33,493 nt of DNA from an uncultured Hyphomicrobiales bacterium (GTDB taxonomy: Bacteria > Pseudomonadota > Alphaproteobacteria > Rhizobiales > Devosiaceae), in NCBI GenBank assembly GCA_903842455.1, contig CAIMLX010000168.1, forward strand, positions 1 to 33,493, written 5' to 3'. The stretch's first letter is position 1. Each line of letters opens with the position of its first letter. Shown here in pieces: positions 5,223-18,185 of this stretch. The position numbers and the translations under genes are program-made. Under the pieces are notes generated by a model that worked only from the letters and a program-made list of their open reading frames with translations, ran no database searches and was not told the origin of the DNA.

Positions 5223-6884
5223 TTACAGGCCGGCAACCAGTTGCGGCGTTCCCGTCACGAAACGGTCATAGGCGGGAACGGCGGCATAGTCGGGAACGAA
5301 GTCGATGCGGCCCGTCAGCGGCCCCAGTTCGGTGCCCTTGTCCAGGTAGCCCTCGGCGCCGCTGAGCACGGCCCAGAAGCCGTCGGTCATCAGCACCGGC
5401 TGCACCAGCGTCTCGTTGACGTGGTCGAGCTCGGGAGCCACGAGTTCCACCTCGCGCTCGGCAATCGAGCCGTTGGGCAGGCGCGACTGGATGAGCCCGG
5501 CAAGCGCCGCCTGCATCGGCTGGCTCGCAGCGGCGCCGCTCAGCGCCTCGAAGGTCTGGTCGAAGATGCCGGCCAACTGGTCGCCGCTGCCGAGCGATGC
5601 CGTACGGATATCGTCGGGCACCTCCAGCCGGTCGAGCTTCTTGACGGGCAGGGCGGGCACCACCACCTCGGCGGATTCGCGCTCGATGATCATCTTCAGC
5701 GCCAGCTCGGCGCCGGGGTCCTGGTTGGTGGGCACGTAGGCGGTCACCATCTCGTCGCCCCTCGGCGTCAGCAGCACGCGCGGCACCGGCATCGGGTCGA
5801 TGGCGCCGAGTGCAGCGAGGGCCGTCTGGCCGTCGTCGGTGGGAAGCGGCGAGCGGGTGGCAAGCTGAAGTCGTTCCGATTTCACGGCCGGTATGGGTGC
5901 ACCGAGGCTTTCCGATGCTGAATCGCCCGTTCCCGGCGTCTCGGCCACGTCGAGGTCCGCGGGTCGCCCGATCGGGATCGGCGCTGCAACCTGGAAGGTC
6001 GACACCACGCGCTGCGCCGGGTCCTCTTCAACCGATGCCACCAGCACGGCGGCCTTGCCGTAAAGGTCCGCCGGCTTGGTTGCCGGAATCGGCGCGACAT
6101 CGTTCAGCAGCTTGATGTCGCCGGTAGCGTCGGCAATCATGATACCGGGATCGGTCTCGAAGGTGACTGCGCCGTTGCACGGCACGGCATGGCACTTGGT
6201 CCACTGGGCCTGCGCGTAGGCACGGCCTTCGTTGGAAAGCGGCTTGCCGTCGGTCGGCAGATGCAGGGTCTTGCCGTCGGGGAAGACCTTCTTCAGCTGC
6301 GCCCGCGTCATGCGCGGCCAGGCGCGCACGCTGCCGGTATCCACGTGCACGAACGGGCTGCCCGACGTCGGGTAGTAGCCCACGCCGCCGACCTGGTATT
6401 TCATCGCCGCTTCGCGCAGCTTCGAGAGGTTGACGCCGGGGATGAAGAAATCCATCGCCTTGCCCTTCATGTGCTGAGAATTGTCAGCCACGCCGGAGGA
6501 CTTGGAGGCCAGCATCTTGTTGGTCTTGGGCGACCGATAGGACGAGACGATGTTGATCGGCTGCTTGCCGTTCACCGACTTGTAGACCTGCCACAGCAGG
6601 TCGAACAGGGCCGGATCCATGTTGGTCGGTTCCTTGGTCCGCCAGTCGGCGAGGAACACGTTCATCTGCTTGAGCACACCCTTGTCGTAGACGCCGTTGC
6701 GCTTGAAGGTGAAGCTCTCGGTCTTGCCGGTATGGGTGTGGTGGAGCCAGAGCGTCCGTTCGCCGTAGTTCGTCACGGCGCTGGCCGGCAGCGTGCTGGG
6801 GGGCAGCAGAATGGTCAAAGCCATGACGGCGGCCAAAATCAGCCGCGGCAGCTTTCGCACTGTTCTGATGAAGTTACCCGACAC
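5223..6884 (-). CDS. M15-family (DUF882/YcbK-like) murein peptidase with long Pro-rich tail
   Basis: 553 residues. A hydrophobic signal or anchor segment (about 13-37, ending PASA) is followed by a DUF882/peptidase M15 domain (about 40-210) with 'NIVSSYRSPKTN', 'SQHMKGKAMDF' (His138, Asp145) and 'FVHVDTG' (His180, Asp182). These are the zinc ligands expected of LAS-type metallopeptidases, which cleave peptidoglycan cross-bridges or stem peptides in the periplasm. The remaining 340 residues are not part of the catalytic fold. They contain four spaced copies of a P-x-P motif (residues about 263, 300, 328 and 409). The start is GTG; only a weak G-rich Shine-Dalgarno precedes it. The gene downstream on the same strand is dxs; the one upstream is an L,D-transpeptidase, so two wall enzymes lie side by side. 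The family call is firm; the exact bond cleaved is not. Confidence 0.85.
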   Translation of the reverse strand: MSGNFIRTVRKLPRLILAAVMALTILLPPSTLPASAVTNYGERTLWLHHTHTGKTESFTFKRNGVYDKGVLKQMNVFLADWRTKEPTNMDPALFDLLWQVYKSVNGKQPINIVSSYRSPKTNKMLASKSSGVADNSQHMKGKAMDFFIPGVNLSKLREAAMKYQVGGVGYYPTSGSPFVHVDTGSVRAWPRMTRAQLKKVFPDGKTLHLPTDGKPLSNEGRAYAQAQWTKCHAVPCNGAVTFETDPGIMIADATGDIKLLNDVAPIPATKPADLYGKAAVLVASVEEDPAQRVVSTFQVAAPIPIGRPADLDVAETPGTGDSASESLGAPIPAVKSERLQLATRSPLPTDDGQTALAALGAIDPMPVPRVLLTPRGDEMVTAYVPTNQDPGAELALKMIIERESAEVVVPALPVKKLDRLEVPDDIRTASLGSGDQLAGIFDQTFEALSGAAASQPMQAALAGLIQSRLPNGSIAEREVELVAPELDHVNETLVQPVLMTDGFWAVLSGAEGYLDKGTELGPLTGRIDFVPDYAAVPAYDRFVTGTPQLVAGL

Positions 6885-10710: not shown

Positions 10711-12540
10711 ATGGACTTCCGCAACCTGCCACGCGCCCCCGAAGCCGCGCCGATGGGTTACAACCTGCTGGGTGAGATGCCCACGTGGAACCTGGGCGAC
10801 CTCTACCCGGCCAACGACTCTCCCGAACTGAAAGCCGACCTGAGTGCCGCCCAGGCCGAGAGCAAGGCGTTCGAGGCAGACTACAAGGGCAAGCTCGATG
10901 CGCTGGCGAAATCCGGCAAGCTGGTCGAGGCGATCAAGCGCTACGAGGCGCTCAGCGATATCACCGGCAAGCTTGGCTCCTACGCTTTCCTGCAGTACGT
11001 GCGGAACACCCAGGACCCCGACAAGGTCAAGTTCATGGGCGACCTCAGCCAGGCCCTGACCGACTTGTCGATCGGCCTCATCTTTTTCGGCCTCGAACTC
11101 AATCGCATCGAGGAAGCGACGCTGGAAGCCGCCTTCGCCGCCGATGCCGGGCTCGCCCGCTACCGCCCGTGGTTCGACGAACTGCGCAAGGCCAAGCCCT
11201 ACCAGCTCGATGAGCGGATCGAAGAGCTGTTCCACGAGAAGTCGGTCACCGGCGCCTCGGCCTGGAACCGCCTCTTCGACGAGACCATGGCGAGCCTCAA
11301 GTTCAACGTGCTGGGCGAGGAGTTGAACCTCGAATCCACCCTCAACTATCTCACCGACCGGGATGAGACAAAGCGCGAGGCGGCGTTCGGCGGCATTTCG
11401 AAGACGCTGCACGGCAACGAGCGGCTCTTCACCCACATCACCAACGTGCTGGCCAAGGACAAGGAAATCTCCGACCGCTGGCACGGCTTCAAGGACATCG
11501 CCGACAGCCGGCACCTCGAGAACTCGGTCGAGCGCGAAGTCGTCGATGCCCTGCAGACCGCGGTGCGCGAGGCGTACCCGCGGCTGTCGCACCGCTACTA
11601 CAAGATGAAGGCGAAGTGGTTCGGCAAGGAACAGCTGAACGCCTGGGACCGCAACGCTCCGCTCCCGACATCCGATGATCGCCTCTACGACTGGCAGACG
11701 GCCCGCGATACCGTGCTCGAGGCCTATGGGCGCTTCTCGCCCAAGCTGGTCGAGATCGCTGAACCGTTCTTCGAGCGGGGCTGGATCGATGCGCCGACAC
11801 GCGACGGCAAGTCGCCCGGCGCCTTCGCCCATCCCACCGTGCCGTCGTCGCACCCCTACCTGATGCTGAACTACCTGGGGAAGGCGCGCGACGTGATGAC
11901 GCTCGCGCACGAACTCGGCCACGGCGTGCACCAGGTGCTCGCCGGCAAGCAGGGCGCGCTGATGGCGCCAACCCCGCTGACGCTTGCCGAAACCGCCTCG
12001 GTGTTCGGCGAAATGCTCACCTTCCGCTCGATGCTGGCCAAGACTACCGACCCCAAGCAGCGCTTCGCCATGCTGTCGAGCAAGGTCGAGGACATGCTGA
12101 ACACCGTGGTCCGGCAGATCGCCTTCTATACGTTCGAGCGCGAGGTCCACACCGCCCGCAAGCAGGGTGAGCTGACCACGCCCGACCTCAACCGCATCTG
12201 GCTCGAGGTCTCGGCCGAAAGCCTCGGTCCGGCGATCAAGCTGAACGAGGGCTATGAGGTGTTCTGGGCCTACATCCCGCACTTCATCCACTCGCCCTTC
12301 TACGTCTACGCCTACGCCTTCGGCGACTGTCTTGTGAACTCGCTCTACGCACAGTATGAGAGGGCGAATGAGGGCTTTGCGGAGCGGTATTTCGAGCTTC
12401 TGCAGGCCGGGGGTAGCAAGCATCACTCCGAGCTTCTCAAGCCCTTCGGGCTCGATGCGCGCGATCCCCAGTTCTGGTCGCTGGGCCTCTCGATGATCGA
12501 GCGGCTGATCGGCGAACTGGAAGCCACTTCGCCGAACTGA
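10711..12540 (+). CDS. M3 family oligoendopeptidase (PepF-like)
   Basis: 609 residues. A cytoplasmic zinc metallopeptidase that cuts short peptides. The HExxH motif is HELGH (residues 400-404) in 'MTLAHELGHGVHQVLAGKQG', followed by 'TPLTLAETASVFGE', where the downstream Glu is the third zinc ligand. 'YIPHFIHSPFYVYAYAFG' is the substrate-binding stretch typical of the M3B/PepF group. The length fits that group (about 590-620). The ATG at 10711 is preceded by GAGGTGA. It is 15 bases from the next gene, so it may be co-transcribed with the oxidase subunit IV gene and the pnt genes, although nothing links them functionally. Confidence 0.93.
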   Translation: MDFRNLPRAPEAAPMGYNLLGEMPTWNLGDLYPANDSPELKADLSAAQAESKAFEADYKGKLDALAKSGKLVEAIKRYEALSDITGKLGSYAFLQYVRNTQDPDKVKFMGDLSQALTDLSIGLIFFGLELNRIEEATLEAAFAADAGLARYRPWFDELRKAKPYQLDERIEELFHEKSVTGASAWNRLFDETMASLKFNVLGEELNLESTLNYLTDRDETKREAAFGGISKTLHGNERLFTHITNVLAKDKEISDRWHGFKDIADSRHLENSVEREVVDALQTAVREAYPRLSHRYYKMKAKWFGKEQLNAWDRNAPLPTSDDRLYDWQTARDTVLEAYGRFSPKLVEIAEPFFERGWIDAPTRDGKSPGAFAHPTVPSSHPYLMLNYLGKARDVMTLAHELGHGVHQVLAGKQGALMAPTPLTLAETASVFGEMLTFRSMLAKTTDPKQRFAMLSSKVEDMLNTVVRQIAFYTFEREVHTARKQGELTTPDLNRIWLEVSAESLGPAIKLNEGYEVFWAYIPHFIHSPFYVYAYAFGDCLVNSLYAQYERANEGFAERYFELLQAGGSKHHSELLKPFGLDARDPQFWSLGLSMIERLIGELEATSPN

Positions 12541-12555
12541 CCAACGAGGACTTTG

Positions 12556-12798
12556 ATGGCCACCACCCCCGCCCCCGCCGATCACCACGACGATATCCCG
12601 GCGATGGACTACCCGCAGCACGAGGCCACCTATCGCGGTTTCATCACCATGGTGAAGCTGGGCATCGTCAACATGGCCTTCGTCGTGCTGGCGCTGTACG
12701 CCTTCATTCAGGCCGGTAATGCCATCGCAGGCGTCGTGCTGTTGCTGCTGTCGGTGCTGGTGCCGGTCGGCATGCAACTGATGGGCCGCCGCCGCTAG
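12556..12798 (+). CDS. aa3-type cytochrome c oxidase subunit IV
   Basis: 80 residues. The N-terminal half has the signature of the bacterial aa3 subunit IV family (PF07835), 'MDYPQHEATYRGFITMVKLG', which leads into two hydrophobic segments (about 34-54 and 56-75) and a basic end. It is a small non-catalytic subunit of the respiratory oxidase in the cytoplasmic membrane. The ATG at 12556 is preceded by GAGGA five bases upstream. The gene lies directly ahead of pntAA, an arrangement I know from other Hyphomicrobiales, so both membrane energy-conversion systems may be expressed together. The 67-base gap to pntAA holds the palindrome GGCCCC-C-GGGGCC (12820-12832). Confidence 0.88.
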   Translation: MATTPAPADHHDDIPAMDYPQHEATYRGFITMVKLGIVNMAFVVLALYAFIQAGNAIAGVVLLLLSVLVPVGMQLMGRRR

Positions 12799-12865
12799 GC
12801 CTGATCGCAGTTCTGGCGAGGCCCCCGGGGCCCCGCAGCCTGGTGCCGACCACCCGGAGAGGTCC

Positions 12866-14278
12866 ATGAAGATTGCAGTGTTGCGGGAGCTTGCCGACGG
12901 CGAGACCCGGGTGGCGGCGACGCCGGAAACTGTCACGAAGTTCAGGGGCCTCGGCGCCGAGGTGGCGGTCGAGTCGGGGGCAGGGGCGCTGGCCCGCATC
13001 CCCGATGCCGACTACGTCGCGGCAGGCGCGAGCGTCGGCAGCGCTGCGGCAACCATCAGGGGCGCCGACATCGTCCTCACCGTCCGCCGCCCGAAGGTGT
13101 CGAGCCTCAATGGCGTGAACCCAGGTGCGCTGGTCATCGGCACGATGGACCCCTACGGCAGCGAGGGCGAGATCGCCTCCCTCGCCAAGGCCGGCGTGAC
13201 TGCCATCGCCATGGAGTTCATGCCGCGCATCACGCGCGCACAGGTGATGGATATCCTCTCCTCGCAGGCCAACCTCGCCGGCTACCAGGCCGTCATCGAT
13301 GCGGCGGGCGCCTTCGAGCGCGCCATGCCGATGATGATGACCGCGGCCGGCACGGTTCGCCCGGCCAAGGTGTTCGTGATGGGCGCCGGCGTTGCTGGTC
13401 TCCAGGCCATCGCCACCGCCCGCCGTCTCGGCGCCGTGGTCACCGCCACCGACGTGCGCGCCGCAGCCGGCGAGCAGGTCGAATCGCTTGGCGCCAAGTT
13501 CATCATGACCGAGGCGCTGAAGGATGCGTCCGGCACCGGGGGCTATGCCCGCGAACTGACCGAGACCGAGAAGGCGTCGCAGGCCGAGCTCGTCGCCGGC
13601 CATATCGCCAAGCAGGATATCGTCATCACCACGGCGCTGATCCCGGGCCGCCCCGCACCGAAGCTGGTGAGCAAGGCGATGGTCGAATCCATGGCCCCGG
13701 GCTCGGTGATCGTCGACCTTGCGGCCGAGCGCGGCGGCAATGTCGAGCTGACCCAGCCCAACAAGGTCATTGCTACCGCCAACGGCGTCACCATCATCGC
13801 CTACACCAACATGGCGGGCCGTCTCGCGACTTCGGCAAGCCAGCTCTACTCGCGCAACCTCAACTCCTTCGTCGAGACGCTGATCGACAAAAAGGAAAAG
13901 AAGCTTGCCGTGAACTGGGACGACGAACTGGTGAAGGCCACCGTCCTCACCCGCGACGGCAACATCGTCCATCCCAACATCAAGCTCGACGCAGCGACTG
14001 CCGCGCCGGGGCCGGCCGCCAAGCCCGCCGGTCCGCCGGCCAAGACTGCGCCGGTCACCAAGACCGCGCCCTTGGCACCCAAGGTCGAGACACCGGCCGC
14101 TGTGGTCCCCGCCGAGCCGGCCAAGAAGGGTCCGGCGAAGAAAGTCGCTGACGAGACCGCACCGGTCGCCGCCAAGGCTCCCGCCAGACGCGCCGCCAAG
14201 CCGGCGACACCCGCCGAAGCCAAGTCGGCCAAGAAGCCTGCCGTCAGGAAGCCTGCTGCTCCCAAGGGGACGACGTAA
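12866..14278 (+). CDS. pntAA: NAD(P) transhydrogenase subunit alpha part 1, with long Ala/Lys/Pro tail
   Basis: 470 residues. This is the NAD(H)-binding domain I of the proton-translocating transhydrogenase, which makes NADPH from NADH using the proton gradient. The family start '[20 protein letters not shown]', '[22 protein letters not shown]' and the Rossmann loop [11 protein letters not shown] (residues 171-181) are all present, as is '[17 protein letters not shown]'. The conserved part ends near residue 374. The last 95 or so residues are low-complexity Ala, Pro and Lys ([19 protein letters not shown] and similar), resembling a histone-H1-like tail. Domain I proteins of the split type are usually about 375-385 residues. 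The start has GGAGAGG just upstream. Its stop is one base from the pntAB start. Confidence 0.97.
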
Positions 14279-14279
14279 A

Positions 14280-14597
14280 ATGGATTTCGTCTCGCACCTT
14301 TCCATCTTCGTGCTCGCCATCGCCGTGGGCTACTACGTGGTCTGGAGTGTTACTCCGGCGCTGCATACGCCGCTGATGGCCGTCACCAACGCCATCTCTT
14401 CGGTGATCGTCGTCGCCGCGCTGCTCGCTGTCGGCGTCCCGCTGGTGCAGGACGCCAACTGGGTGAGCAAGCTGTTCGGCTTCCTCGCCCTGGTCCTCGC
14501 GTCGGTAAACATCTTCGGTGGCTTCCTCGTCACCCAGCGCATGCTGGCGATGTACAAGAAGAAGGACCCGGCGCCAAAGAAGGCCGGTGGGCACTGA
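14280..14597 (+). CDS. pntAB: NAD(P) transhydrogenase subunit alpha part 2
   Basis: 105 residues with three to four hydrophobic helices: '[16 protein letters not shown]', '[22 protein letters not shown]' and '[20 protein letters not shown]'. The motif '[17 protein letters not shown]' and the ending '[16 protein letters not shown]' are diagnostic of the small membrane subunit that supplies part of the proton channel (domain II). It is the normal size for the separate PntAB of alphaproteobacteria. Its stop overlaps the ATG of the next gene by one base (TGATG), so X is probably translated by re-initiation. Confidence 0.96.
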
Positions 14598-15166
14598 TGG
14601 CCATGCTTCACCGCATCGCAGCGGCCCTGCTCGTCGTCCTGGCGCTCGCTGGCGGCGCCCTCGCGCAGTCCATCACGCCCCCCAACGGCGTCGACGCCGG
14701 GCAGTATTTCGCGCTCGTCGCGCGGGTCGACAGCTTCGATGCCGCCATGAAGGCCAGCGACATGGCCACCATCATGAGCGTCATTCCGCCAAAGGTGCTC
14801 AACCAGATCGCCACGAAATACAGCGTCACTCCCGAGCAGCTGGTCGAGGCGGCCCAGCAGCAGATCGACGCGGCCATGGCCGAAATCGAGCTGGTGTCGT
14901 TCGGCATGGATCTTCAGAACAGCGATTTCTACATTCTGCCCGACGGCACGCGCTACGCGCTCATCCCGACCGAGACGGTGATGGACCTGGGTGGCGGGGT
15001 CGGCAAGATGCGGGCCAGTTCTACCACGCTCGGCGTGCTCGATGGCACCGAGTGGTACCTGGTGCGGGTCGAGGATCCGGAGCAGGTGGCGATCTTCAAG
15101 GAAGTCTATCCCGCCTTCGCTGACGTGACGTTCCCGGCCGGCCGCATGGAGCCCGTGACAGAATGA
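14597..15166 (+). CDS. Exported protein of unknown function inside the pnt operon (X)
   Basis: 189 residues. I do not recognise the family. A clear signal peptide ([23 protein letters not shown], cleavage before QS) indicates export to the periplasm. The mature part has no cysteine. A predicted helical stretch contains 'ALVARVDSFDAAMKASDMATIMSVIPPKVLNQIA'. A beta-rich C-terminal half follows ('YILPDGTRYALIPTETVMDLG', 'TEWYLVRVEDPEQVAIFKEVYPAF'). The layout resembles small ligand-binding or assembly domains of the NTF2 kind, but that is only an impression. It overlaps pntAB by one base and the next gene by four (ATGA), so it is translationally tied to the transhydrogenase. It could be an assembly factor or accessory periplasmic subunit. 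Confidence 0.8.
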   Translation: MAMLHRIAAALLVVLALAGGALAQSITPPNGVDAGQYFALVARVDSFDAAMKASDMATIMSVIPPKVLNQIATKYSVTPEQLVEAAQQQIDAAMAEIELVSFGMDLQNSDFYILPDGTRYALIPTETVMDLGGGVGKMRASSTTLGVLDGTEWYLVRVEDPEQVAIFKEVYPAFADVTFPAGRMEPVTE

Positions 15167-15455
15167 ACGATGCCATCCTCTCGCCGCTGTTCCAGATCTT
15201 CGGTGGGCTCAGCTTTGCCCTCATCATTGGCGTCCGCTGCATGGCGCCGGCGGCACTGAAGCCGCTCTGGGGCAAGGTCGCGGCCTTCGCGCTGATCTTC
15301 GTGGCGCTGGGCAACCTGCTGCTGTCGTTCGCGGCGCGCGGCACGCTGTCGCGCAATGCCGAGCTGTTCGCGCTGGGCGGGGCGAGCTTCTTCGTCGCTG
15401 CCATCCTAATCTTCGTGGCGCTGCTGCTTGCGGCACGCCAAACCGTGGTGACCAA

Positions 15456-15459
<4 letters not shown>
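15163..15459 (+). CDS. Small three-helix membrane protein inside the pnt operon (Y)
   Basis: 98 residues. Not a family I recognise. Three hydrophobic segments are visible: about 10-30 ('FQIFGGLSFALIIGVRCMA'), 36-57 ('WGKVAAFALIFVALGNLLLSF') and 69-92 ('ALGGASFFVAAILIFVALLLA'). Short polar loops separate them and the C-terminus is basic (RQTVVTK). It overlaps X upstream (ATGA, 15163-15166) and pntB downstream (ATGA, 15456-15459), so it cannot be expressed apart from them. The size and helix spacing are reminiscent of PntAB, but the PntAB motifs are absent, so it is not an obvious duplicate. It may be an extra membrane subunit or chaperone of the transhydrogenase. Confidence 0.78.
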
Positions 15460-16862
<1,403 letters not shown>

Positions 16863-16871
16863 TCCCCGGCC

Positions 16872-16907
16872 AAGGGCAAGCGCGCTCGCTGGGTGCGCTG
16901 CCTTTCT
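16872..16907 (+). terminator. Probable terminator after pntB
   Basis: AAGGGCAAGCGC (16872-16883) pairs with GCGCTGCCTTT (16895-16905) with one bulged A and one G-T pair. It ends in TTTCT. It lies 9 bases past the pntB stop. Confidence 0.45.
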
Positions 16908-16964
16908 CCCGCCGCTCCGCGCACCTATATGCTGCGTGGGTCGAGCCTGAAGGAGACACGGCGG

Positions 16965-18185
16965 ATGCGGGGGGTGTGGCGCGAGTTCGTCGAGTTGTGG
17001 CGTGTGCTCGTCCTCGTCGCCTTCATTTCCGGCCTGCTGCTCTCGCCCAACGTCGCCGCCGCCGTGAAAATGGCGGACCTTGCGACCCAGGGCGCCTATG
17101 CCGAGATCCAGCTGCAGCAGGTGCCGCCCGAGCGCTACGCCACCGAGATTGCCGCCGCGCTCGATGCCGGCGACGCCACGCTGGCCCGCTCGCTCGCCGC
17201 GCTGGCGGCATCCCGCAACATCCCCGTTCCGCCTGAACTGACCGAACGCATCGCCAACTTGCCAGCCGTCGATATCGGCGCCACTTTTGGCGCCGGCTGG
17301 AATTGCGTGGTCAACGGGGATTTCGACAGCGAGGCCGGCTTCGCCTGCGTCGTCGCCACCGACCTCACCGGCATCGGCGACGTGCGCGACCTCGTGGGGG
17401 AGGGCGGCAAGTTCATCGCCGGCCAGCCCGTCGACTACTTCACCCTCGGTATCGCCAGCGTCGGCCTGGGGCTCACCGCCGCCACGATCTCCAGCCTCGG
17501 CGCAGTGGCCCCGCTCCGCATGGGTGCCAGCTTCATTAAGGCCACCCACCGGGTCGGCAAGCTGCCACCCCGCCTGACGGCCCAGATTGCCACGGCGCTG
17601 CAGCGCGGCATCAACCGGCCGGCGCTCGACGAGGCGATCACACTTGCCACCTCGATGCGCCTCGGTGATCTCGGCCGGCCGCTGTCGCGGCTGTTCAACC
17701 CGCGCAGTGTCCGCCTTGTCTCCAATCTCGCCGAGGATTTCGGCACCATCGGCAAGGCGGGCGGCGTCCGCGCCATGCGGCTCAGTGTCGAGACGGCCGA
17801 AACCGCCGGCGATGTGCGCCGTCTGGCGCGAGTCGCCAATACCTATGGCGATGGCTACGTCGGGGTGATCAAGCTGGTCGGTCGCGGAGCCCTCCGGCTC
17901 GGCCAGTTGTTCTTCACCATCGTCGGCTGGCTTGTCGGAGCGCTGCTCTGGGTATGGAGCATGCTGACCTTCACTCTCAACGCCATCACCGGTACCGACC
18001 GCTTCTTCCGTCGCCGGGCGCGTCAGCGGCGCGAGGTTCAGCTGGCGCGACGAGAATCGTTCAGAAGCCCGTCAGGCGCCGTTCATTCGAACGCCAGCGC
18101 CTCCCGCTCACCGCGGTTCGTCGGTGCGGCGGAGCCCCGGATCGAACCGCAGTTGATCGTGGCGACCGCCTCGACCGGACGATAG
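16965..18185 (+). CDS. Membrane protein of unknown function
   Basis: 406 residues. I do not recognise the family. An N-terminal hydrophobic segment (about 11-33, 'LWRVLVLVAFISGLLLSPNVAA') acts as signal or anchor. A helical region of Ala-rich repeats ('YATEIAAALDAGDATLARSLAALAAS') follows. Then a domain has two cysteines ('GWNCVV' and 'GFACVV'), which could pair in the periplasm. A Gly/Ala-rich hydrophobic stretch ('LGIASVGLGLTAATISSLGAV') comes next, and a strong C-terminal transmembrane helix (about 313-338) precedes a basic tail rich in Arg. The frame is open from 16893, but the ATG at 16965 has AAGGAG nine bases upstream. It lies just after the pnt operon and a probable terminator, so it is likely a separate unit. 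Confidence 0.75.
   Translation: MRGVWREFVELWRVLVLVAFISGLLLSPNVAAAVKMADLATQGAYAEIQLQQVPPERYATEIAAALDAGDATLARSLAALAASRNIPVPPELTERIANLPAVDIGATFGAGWNCVVNGDFDSEAGFACVVATDLTGIGDVRDLVGEGGKFIAGQPVDYFTLGIASVGLGLTAATISSLGAVAPLRMGASFIKATHRVGKLPPRLTAQIATALQRGINRPALDEAITLATSMRLGDLGRPLSRLFNPRSVRLVSNLAEDFGTIGKAGGVRAMRLSVETAETAGDVRRLARVANTYGDGYVGVIKLVGRGALRLGQLFFTIVGWLVGALLWVWSMLTFTLNAITGTDRFFRRRARQRREVQLARRESFRSPSGAVHSNASASRSPRFVGAAEPRIEPQLIVATASTGR

Follow-up and report, generated by a model that had tools for sequence, protein, structure and literature searches.

Proton-translocating transhydrogenase is a major source of NADPH, and no accessory or regulatory partner of the enzyme is known to us. The mainly open-access literature searched, at the level of titles and the opening of abstracts, mentions neither genes between pntAB and pntB nor an accessory or regulatory transhydrogenase partner. 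Single-chain forms of the enzyme carry a linking helix, TM5. In the Escherichia coli enzyme, TM1–4 are described as lying in the alpha subunit and TM6–14 in the beta subunit, 13 helices in total (PMC9529548), so the gene break falls at the position of TM5.

The two genes on either side of this break usually adjoin, as a preliminary description of the present locus had stated. Our survey of the order covered 249 genomes, 242 with PntAB and 243 with PntB; pairing among the matches listed gave at least 94 pntAB–pntB neighbours in 93 of these genomes, and among those matches the gap between domain ends was 29–57 nucleotides (nt) in 77 of 94 pairs and more than 200 nt in 4. Here we analyse a window of 33,493 nt from an uncultured Hyphomicrobiales bacterium (contig CAIMLX010000168.1; genome G000 in our comparisons) in which 858 bases holding two further genes, X and Y, separate pntAB from pntB.

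Gene layout of the window locus

All features described below are on the + strand. The NAD(H)-binding subunit gene pntAA (12866..14278; PF05222 and PF01262), which has a long Ala/Lys/Pro-rich tail, is followed by pntAB (14280..14597; PF12769, E = 5.6e-34), encoding the first membrane subunit with a basic tail that we compare across loci below. The second membrane subunit, with the NADP(H) domain, is encoded by pntB (15456..16862; PF02233, E = 2.3e-195). The Pfam domains of the three proteins are complete and matched nearly end to end, and the genes are in the usual order. Between pntAB and pntB, gene X (14597..15166) encodes a 189-amino-acid protein, predicted from its translation, an AlphaFold2 model, fold matches and relatives to be exported and NTF2-like, and gene Y (15163..15459) encodes 98 amino acids with three predicted membrane helices, as judged from the open reading frame, hydropathy, a weak model and relatives. 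Both reading frames are real and neither protein matches a Pfam or NCBIfam family above cut-off, in agreement with the earlier report of two unrecognised genes. The overlaps given in that report were also confirmed: pntAB and X share one base at CACTGATGGCC (TGATG), and the X–Y join GAATGAACG and the Y–pntB join AAATGATCG are both 4-base ATGA overlaps. The third-position G+C content of X (0.87) and Y (0.88) compares with 0.87–0.91 in the flanking genes. Simple scans found no promoter-like sites in 12400–17000 and no + strand terminator-like sites between pntAB and pntB; a single message, itself an inferred unit, would probably be translated through coupled starts. The window's own genome contains a single PntB match, a single X and a single Y, and its closest named relative is a metagenome assembly labelled Devosia equisanguinis, with which it shares 90% identity in X and 98% in PntB. 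On this basis the genome is probably that of a Devosia, in the order Hyphomicrobiales.

Several neighbouring features were recorded. Upstream of pntAA, and outside the insert, lies a small gene resembling subunit IV of aa3-type cytochrome c oxidase (12553..12798; PF07835, E = 6.7e-10); a similar gene occurs in 13 of the 19 pnt loci tested, and such a gene also lies just upstream of pntAA at the X-less pnt loci L131, L139, L140 and L141. The Ala/Lys/Pro-rich tail of PntAA (13990–14278) varies in length among loci and does not strictly match the presence of X: the protein ends soon after its domain in some X-less relatives such as L011, and is also short in X-bearing L013. Downstream of pntB, an open reading frame of 430 amino acids (16893–18185) has no Pfam or NCBIfam family above cut-off.

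Distribution of X and Y and of other genes at the junction

PntB is present in all 19 genomes of the genus, though truncated at a contig end in two of them, G007 and G013. X occurs in nine of them, every copy between pntAB and pntB, and pntB follows pntAB directly in the other ten. The search for Y found G000, G007 and G010, and a divergent copy (25% identity) was read in the G009 gap; 15 of the 19 genomes have no recognised Y. A weak match in G011 (E = 0.0065) was dropped, being partial, on another contig and within a long open frame. The order is X–Y in G000, G010 and G009, and Y–X in G007; X stands alone at the junction in G012, G014, G013, G002 and G011. In the closest relative of the window's genome, G012, X is present and Y is cleanly absent. 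The X-less genomes G001 and G015 fall inside the X-bearing clade of PntB (SH-aLRT 98, one quick tree) and retain long PntAB tails, as do most X bearers; both features suggest, from sequence comparison, that these two genomes lost X.

Y adjoins X, in one order or the other, in 4 of the 19 genomes of the genus. Such adjacency might be expected if the two worked as a pair in a periplasmic or membrane pathway that serves the cell in the same circumstances as the transhydrogenase without touching the enzyme. Five of the nine X-bearing genus genomes nevertheless have X without Y, and G097, from another family, has Y without X. We regard such a pathway as quite improbable.

Beyond the genus, X occupies the pntAB–pntB junction in members of three or more further families of the same order. 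In an even draw of 397 order genomes (E ≤ 0.01), ten had X matches, of which seven were strong (E of 1e-15 or better). Five of these seven are in pnt operons (G000, G296, G279, G348 and G278) and two, with around 1.5 kb of flank read, are away from pnt (G147 and G404). The G147 copy has an internal stop, and a different contig of that genome has pntAB right next to the start of pntB. G404 encodes two remote homologues of X (about 20% identity; profile E = 1.6e-19 and 2.6e-15) and has no PntB match; among 12 genomes checked, ten have PntB, and the two without it, G404 and G196, are of the same genus. An accessory subunit should be absent where its enzyme is absent, which does not hold for X in G404. 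Weak matches in G336, G024 and G413 (E = 2.4e-4 to 0.0027) were set aside because they cover only positions 44–144, 2–68 and 2–55 of 181.

Other samples gave a different balance. A scan of named genomes with two peptide patterns only returned 25 X loci. Eight of these are in pnt operons, comprising seven Devosia-type loci (including a metagenome-assembled genome labelled Hyphomicrobiales) and Aestuariivirga; the other 17, 15 from Agrobacterium or Rhizobium and 2 from Paracoccus, have no pnt gene within flanks of about 6 kb. Named environmental strains carrying X include Devosia insulae DS-56 and Devosia sp. Root413D1. In an even, class-wide draw of 337 genomes, X was matched at 1e-6 in three: G000, plus G455 and G490, where the copy is free. 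A plasmid search with X gave three remote Bartonella matches (about 21% identity). In the two Paracoccus loci (L057 and L058, around 5900–6530), the X homologue overlaps, by ATGA, a glutathione-S-transferase-like gene that it precedes, within what appears by eye to be a fatty-acid-oxidation-like gene cluster. In Aestuariivirga sp. YIM B02566 the junction holds a tandem pair of X genes that differ from each other (L055, 5390–6531). On a quick PntB tree of 60 rows, the distribution of X needs at least five gains or losses, four of them forced by well-supported branches; on the X tree, a single origin of the 15 pnt-linked rows was not rejected (p-AU 0.18).

Y was sought in the 19 genus genomes and in an even draw of 297 order genomes. 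Among the latter, strong matches were confined to G000 and G097, the search model already containing the G097 sequence, taken from the gap survey. In G097, Y is the only gene in the junction, joined to pntAB by TGATG and to pntB by ATGA. All five recognised copies (G000, G010, G007, G009 and G097) are at the pntAB–pntB junction, in two families and three arrangements, and all Y-bearing genomes also have PntB. Eight further order genomes gave weak Y matches (E = 1.8e-4 to 0.0099), which we set aside because each is partial and inside an open frame of at least 301 codons. Whether homologues of the two genes mostly lie in pnt operons thus has a divided answer: they do for recognised Y (5/5) and for genomes with strong X matches in the even draw of 397 (5/7), but in the named collection 8 of 25 X loci do.

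We also examined what else the junction accepts. The four gaps of more than 200 nt in the order survey hold X in G278, Y in G097, no convincing gene in G191 and, in G199 (L130, 2496–3023), a gene for a lipoprotein-like protein of 175 amino acids that is unrelated to X or Y, overlaps pntAB by ATGA and has no Pfam family at E 0.01. In a class draw, PntAB was present in 115 of 142 genomes; 110 matches were read (30 loci and 80 regions), together with 30 order loci, and both genes were found in 138 of the 140 loci read, including 108 of 110 from the class draw. Clear inserts unrelated to X and Y are present in 4 of the 108 class-draw loci: an IS110-like transposase frame, labelled by eye, in G503 (L237); a 94-amino-acid membrane protein with a nucleotidyltransferase/HepT-like pair in G490 (L255, 1166–2123), which belongs to another alphaproteobacterial family; a peptidase S51 gene in G509; and a 111-amino-acid open reading frame in G431. 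A fifth candidate, a 71-amino-acid frame in L202, was left as doubtful. G490 also has its free X homologue elsewhere in the genome. As the junction accepts various genes at a rate of a few per cent, position alone is weak evidence for function.

The contents of the junction that involve the two genes are X, X–Y, Y–X, Y and X–X. Patchy presence, copies of X away from pnt and unrelated genes at the same junction together indicate that the pnt operon carries X and Y as optional, coupled cassettes and that neither is a core subunit; we therefore rejected the idea of conserved extra core subunits, given how patchy both genes are within one genus. The proposal that they are built-in parts of the enzyme fails on the same grounds: 10 of the 19 genus genomes have pnt without X, the closest relative has no Y, and X homologues lie elsewhere, two of them in G404. 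These observations also invite the view that X and Y are passengers: a junction in a steadily expressed housekeeping operon would tolerate inserts, overlaps would permit gain and loss without stopping pntB, and the two proteins would do unrelated envelope work. The four unrelated class-draw inserts, the lipoprotein-like gene of G199, the retention of X homologues in G404 and the clean absence of Y from G012 all fit such a view. Against it, X and Y are the only inserts seen to recur at the junction across families, and all five recognised Y copies, as well as five of the seven genomes with strong X in the even draw, are pnt-linked. This recurrence is what stands out. We consider a functional link to the transhydrogenase plausible, most strongly for Y, and passengers about as likely.

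Joins, ribosome sites and repeats

The overlaps are conserved across rearrangements. Counting loci within the genus and beyond it, 13 of 14 with X join pntAB to the following gene through a TGATG overlap; the exception, G009, has ATGA. In each of the nine X-bearing genus genomes, pntB is joined to the gene before it by an ATGA overlap, re-made at each rearranged junction. Outside the genus the X–pntB overlap is not general: it is kept in G296 and G279, but a few bases separate X from pntB in G278, G348 and Aestuariivirga.

Ribosome sites are carried within the preceding genes. A Shine–Dalgarno-like GGTGGG for X lies in the end of pntAB (14586..14591), and a GGAG in the end of X (15148..15151) stands before whichever gene comes next. 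In G000 and G010 that gene is Y; in G012, G014 and G007 it is pntB. The overlaps had been taken to mean that X and Y are made in fixed proportion with the enzyme. The sequence does not establish this; predicted pairing energies in the window are −6.3 kcal/mol for X, −5.6 for Y and only −2.8 for pntB. Such differences could mean that the main effect of the insert is on translation, adjusting how much pntB product is made relative to pntAA–pntAB, with the X and Y proteins themselves mattering little. Pairing for pntB is indeed weak where Y precedes it in G000 and G010 (−2.8); it is stronger where X precedes it (−5.6) and in four operons that lack X (−5.3 to −8.6). The divergent Y of G009 breaks the pattern, as pntB there also has strong pairing (−8.6). 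Moreover, purifying selection acts on the protein encoded by X (dN 0.047, dS 0.384, dN/dS about 0.12 between G000 and G012), which is predicted to fold well, and we judge a mainly translational role very improbable.

The tail of PntAB varies with X. It ends in His in 9 of 14 X-bearing loci, in 1 of 10 X-less genus loci and in none of 148 other loci, a set that includes second copies (for example, L132/L093 and L139/L074) and loci with Y only or with the lipoprotein-like gene. This covariation was first considered as a sign of contact with X. An explanation at the RNA level fits better: the ribosome site of X falls within the last codons of pntAB, and the end of the tail is presumably cytoplasmic while X is exported. 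A need for that site accounts for the association of tail and X better than contact does.

The end of X (GTGACAGAATGA, 15155..15166) and the end of Y (GTGACCAAATGA, 15448..15459) form an imperfect direct repeat that matches at 10 of 12 positions, with a chance probability of about 1% for the eight bases before ATGA. The pair was not listed in the window by an automated repeat search, as it lacks an exact 6-base seed; a like pair was listed in G010, matching at 10 of 13 positions (L019, 1152–1164 and 1469–1481). Deleting one repeat copy with the intervening Y would yield the gene order and overlap of G012. Short repeats at overlapping joins may, from the sequences compared, let such genes drop out with coupling intact.

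Predicted proteins and possible roles

X starts with a hydrophobic, signal-like stretch ending in ALA-Q, with a cut after about residue 23 as read by eye (residues 1 to ~23, 14597..14665); a helix spans residues 2–22 in the model. The AlphaFold2 model (pLDDT 88.9) has the cone-shaped alpha+beta fold of the NTF2-like superfamily, and X is predicted from it to be an exported NTF2-like protein. Searches with 24 X members listed seven families at E values of up to 0.1, none of them a curated NTF2-type family. DUF4454 matched 6 of the 24 weakly (best E = 0.0049) and a tape-measure model matched one (E = 0.007), and neither was accepted. A profile search of solved structures gave two weak matches, the better being a designed cortisol-binding protein (E = 0.036).

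Y has three hydrophobic peaks, and a weak model (4 sequences, pLDDT 66) also shows three helices; like the signal-like start of X, this agrees with the preliminary description. A fold search with so weak a model was dropped. The YhhN family reached 16.3 bits in one of five Y members, below the Pfam cut-off of 25.6, and the 94-amino-acid membrane protein of the G490 pnt operon was unsupported as a distant Y (hhalign probability of about 1%).

Our preferred reading, to which we assign a probability of roughly two in five, is that X and Y assist the transhydrogenase, and it is best founded for Y. The pntAB–pntB junction would carry optional, translationally coupled cassettes. Y would insert in the membrane beside the membrane domain of the transhydrogenase, to which it is most likely dedicated; made exactly at the gene break, it could pack in the place of TM5, perhaps occupying the region that this helix fills in the single-chain enzyme. 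X would cross the membrane and fold in the periplasm, most likely assisting the enzyme from there, in assembly or quality control, while being dispensable. The sequences show the order of the genes, their overlaps and recurrence, purifying selection on X and its predicted fold; any contact with the enzyme, or effect on it, is inferred. Points for an assisting role are the junction position of all nine X genes of the genus and of those in G296, G279, G348, G278 and Aestuariivirga; points against it are the ten genus genomes without X, the unrelated junction genes and the X homologues found in other gene clusters or standing alone in some lineages. A more elaborate version seems to us unlikely: a five-part transhydrogenase in some Hyphomicrobiales, in which Y is a membrane subunit at the TM5 place between the two membrane subunits, X acts as a cap or gate on the periplasmic side where protons enter, and one coupled message yields the five parts in order.

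Related Devosia differ naturally in whether they have X and Y, which makes near-identical enzymes comparable with and without each extra gene, and the locus may illustrate how overlapping joins turn operon genes into removable cassettes.

Three described systems invite comparison. Like the small accessory subunits of respiratory proton pumps, such as subunit IV of aa3 oxidase, Y is a small membrane protein whose gene lies among those of a large proton pump, but it has no Pfam match to such a family and has three predicted helices. Among exported NTF2-like proteins with solved structures, X may be set beside members such as the N-terminal domain of PBP2a and PBP3, which we take to be NTF2-like; X stands alone, without the penicillin-binding part, has 5–15% identity to such structures among the matches listed and matches no Pfam NTF2 family. 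With the three-gene pntAA–pntAB–pntB transhydrogenase operon, the window shares all core genes in their usual order, and differs from it in adding two overlapping genes between pntAB and pntB.
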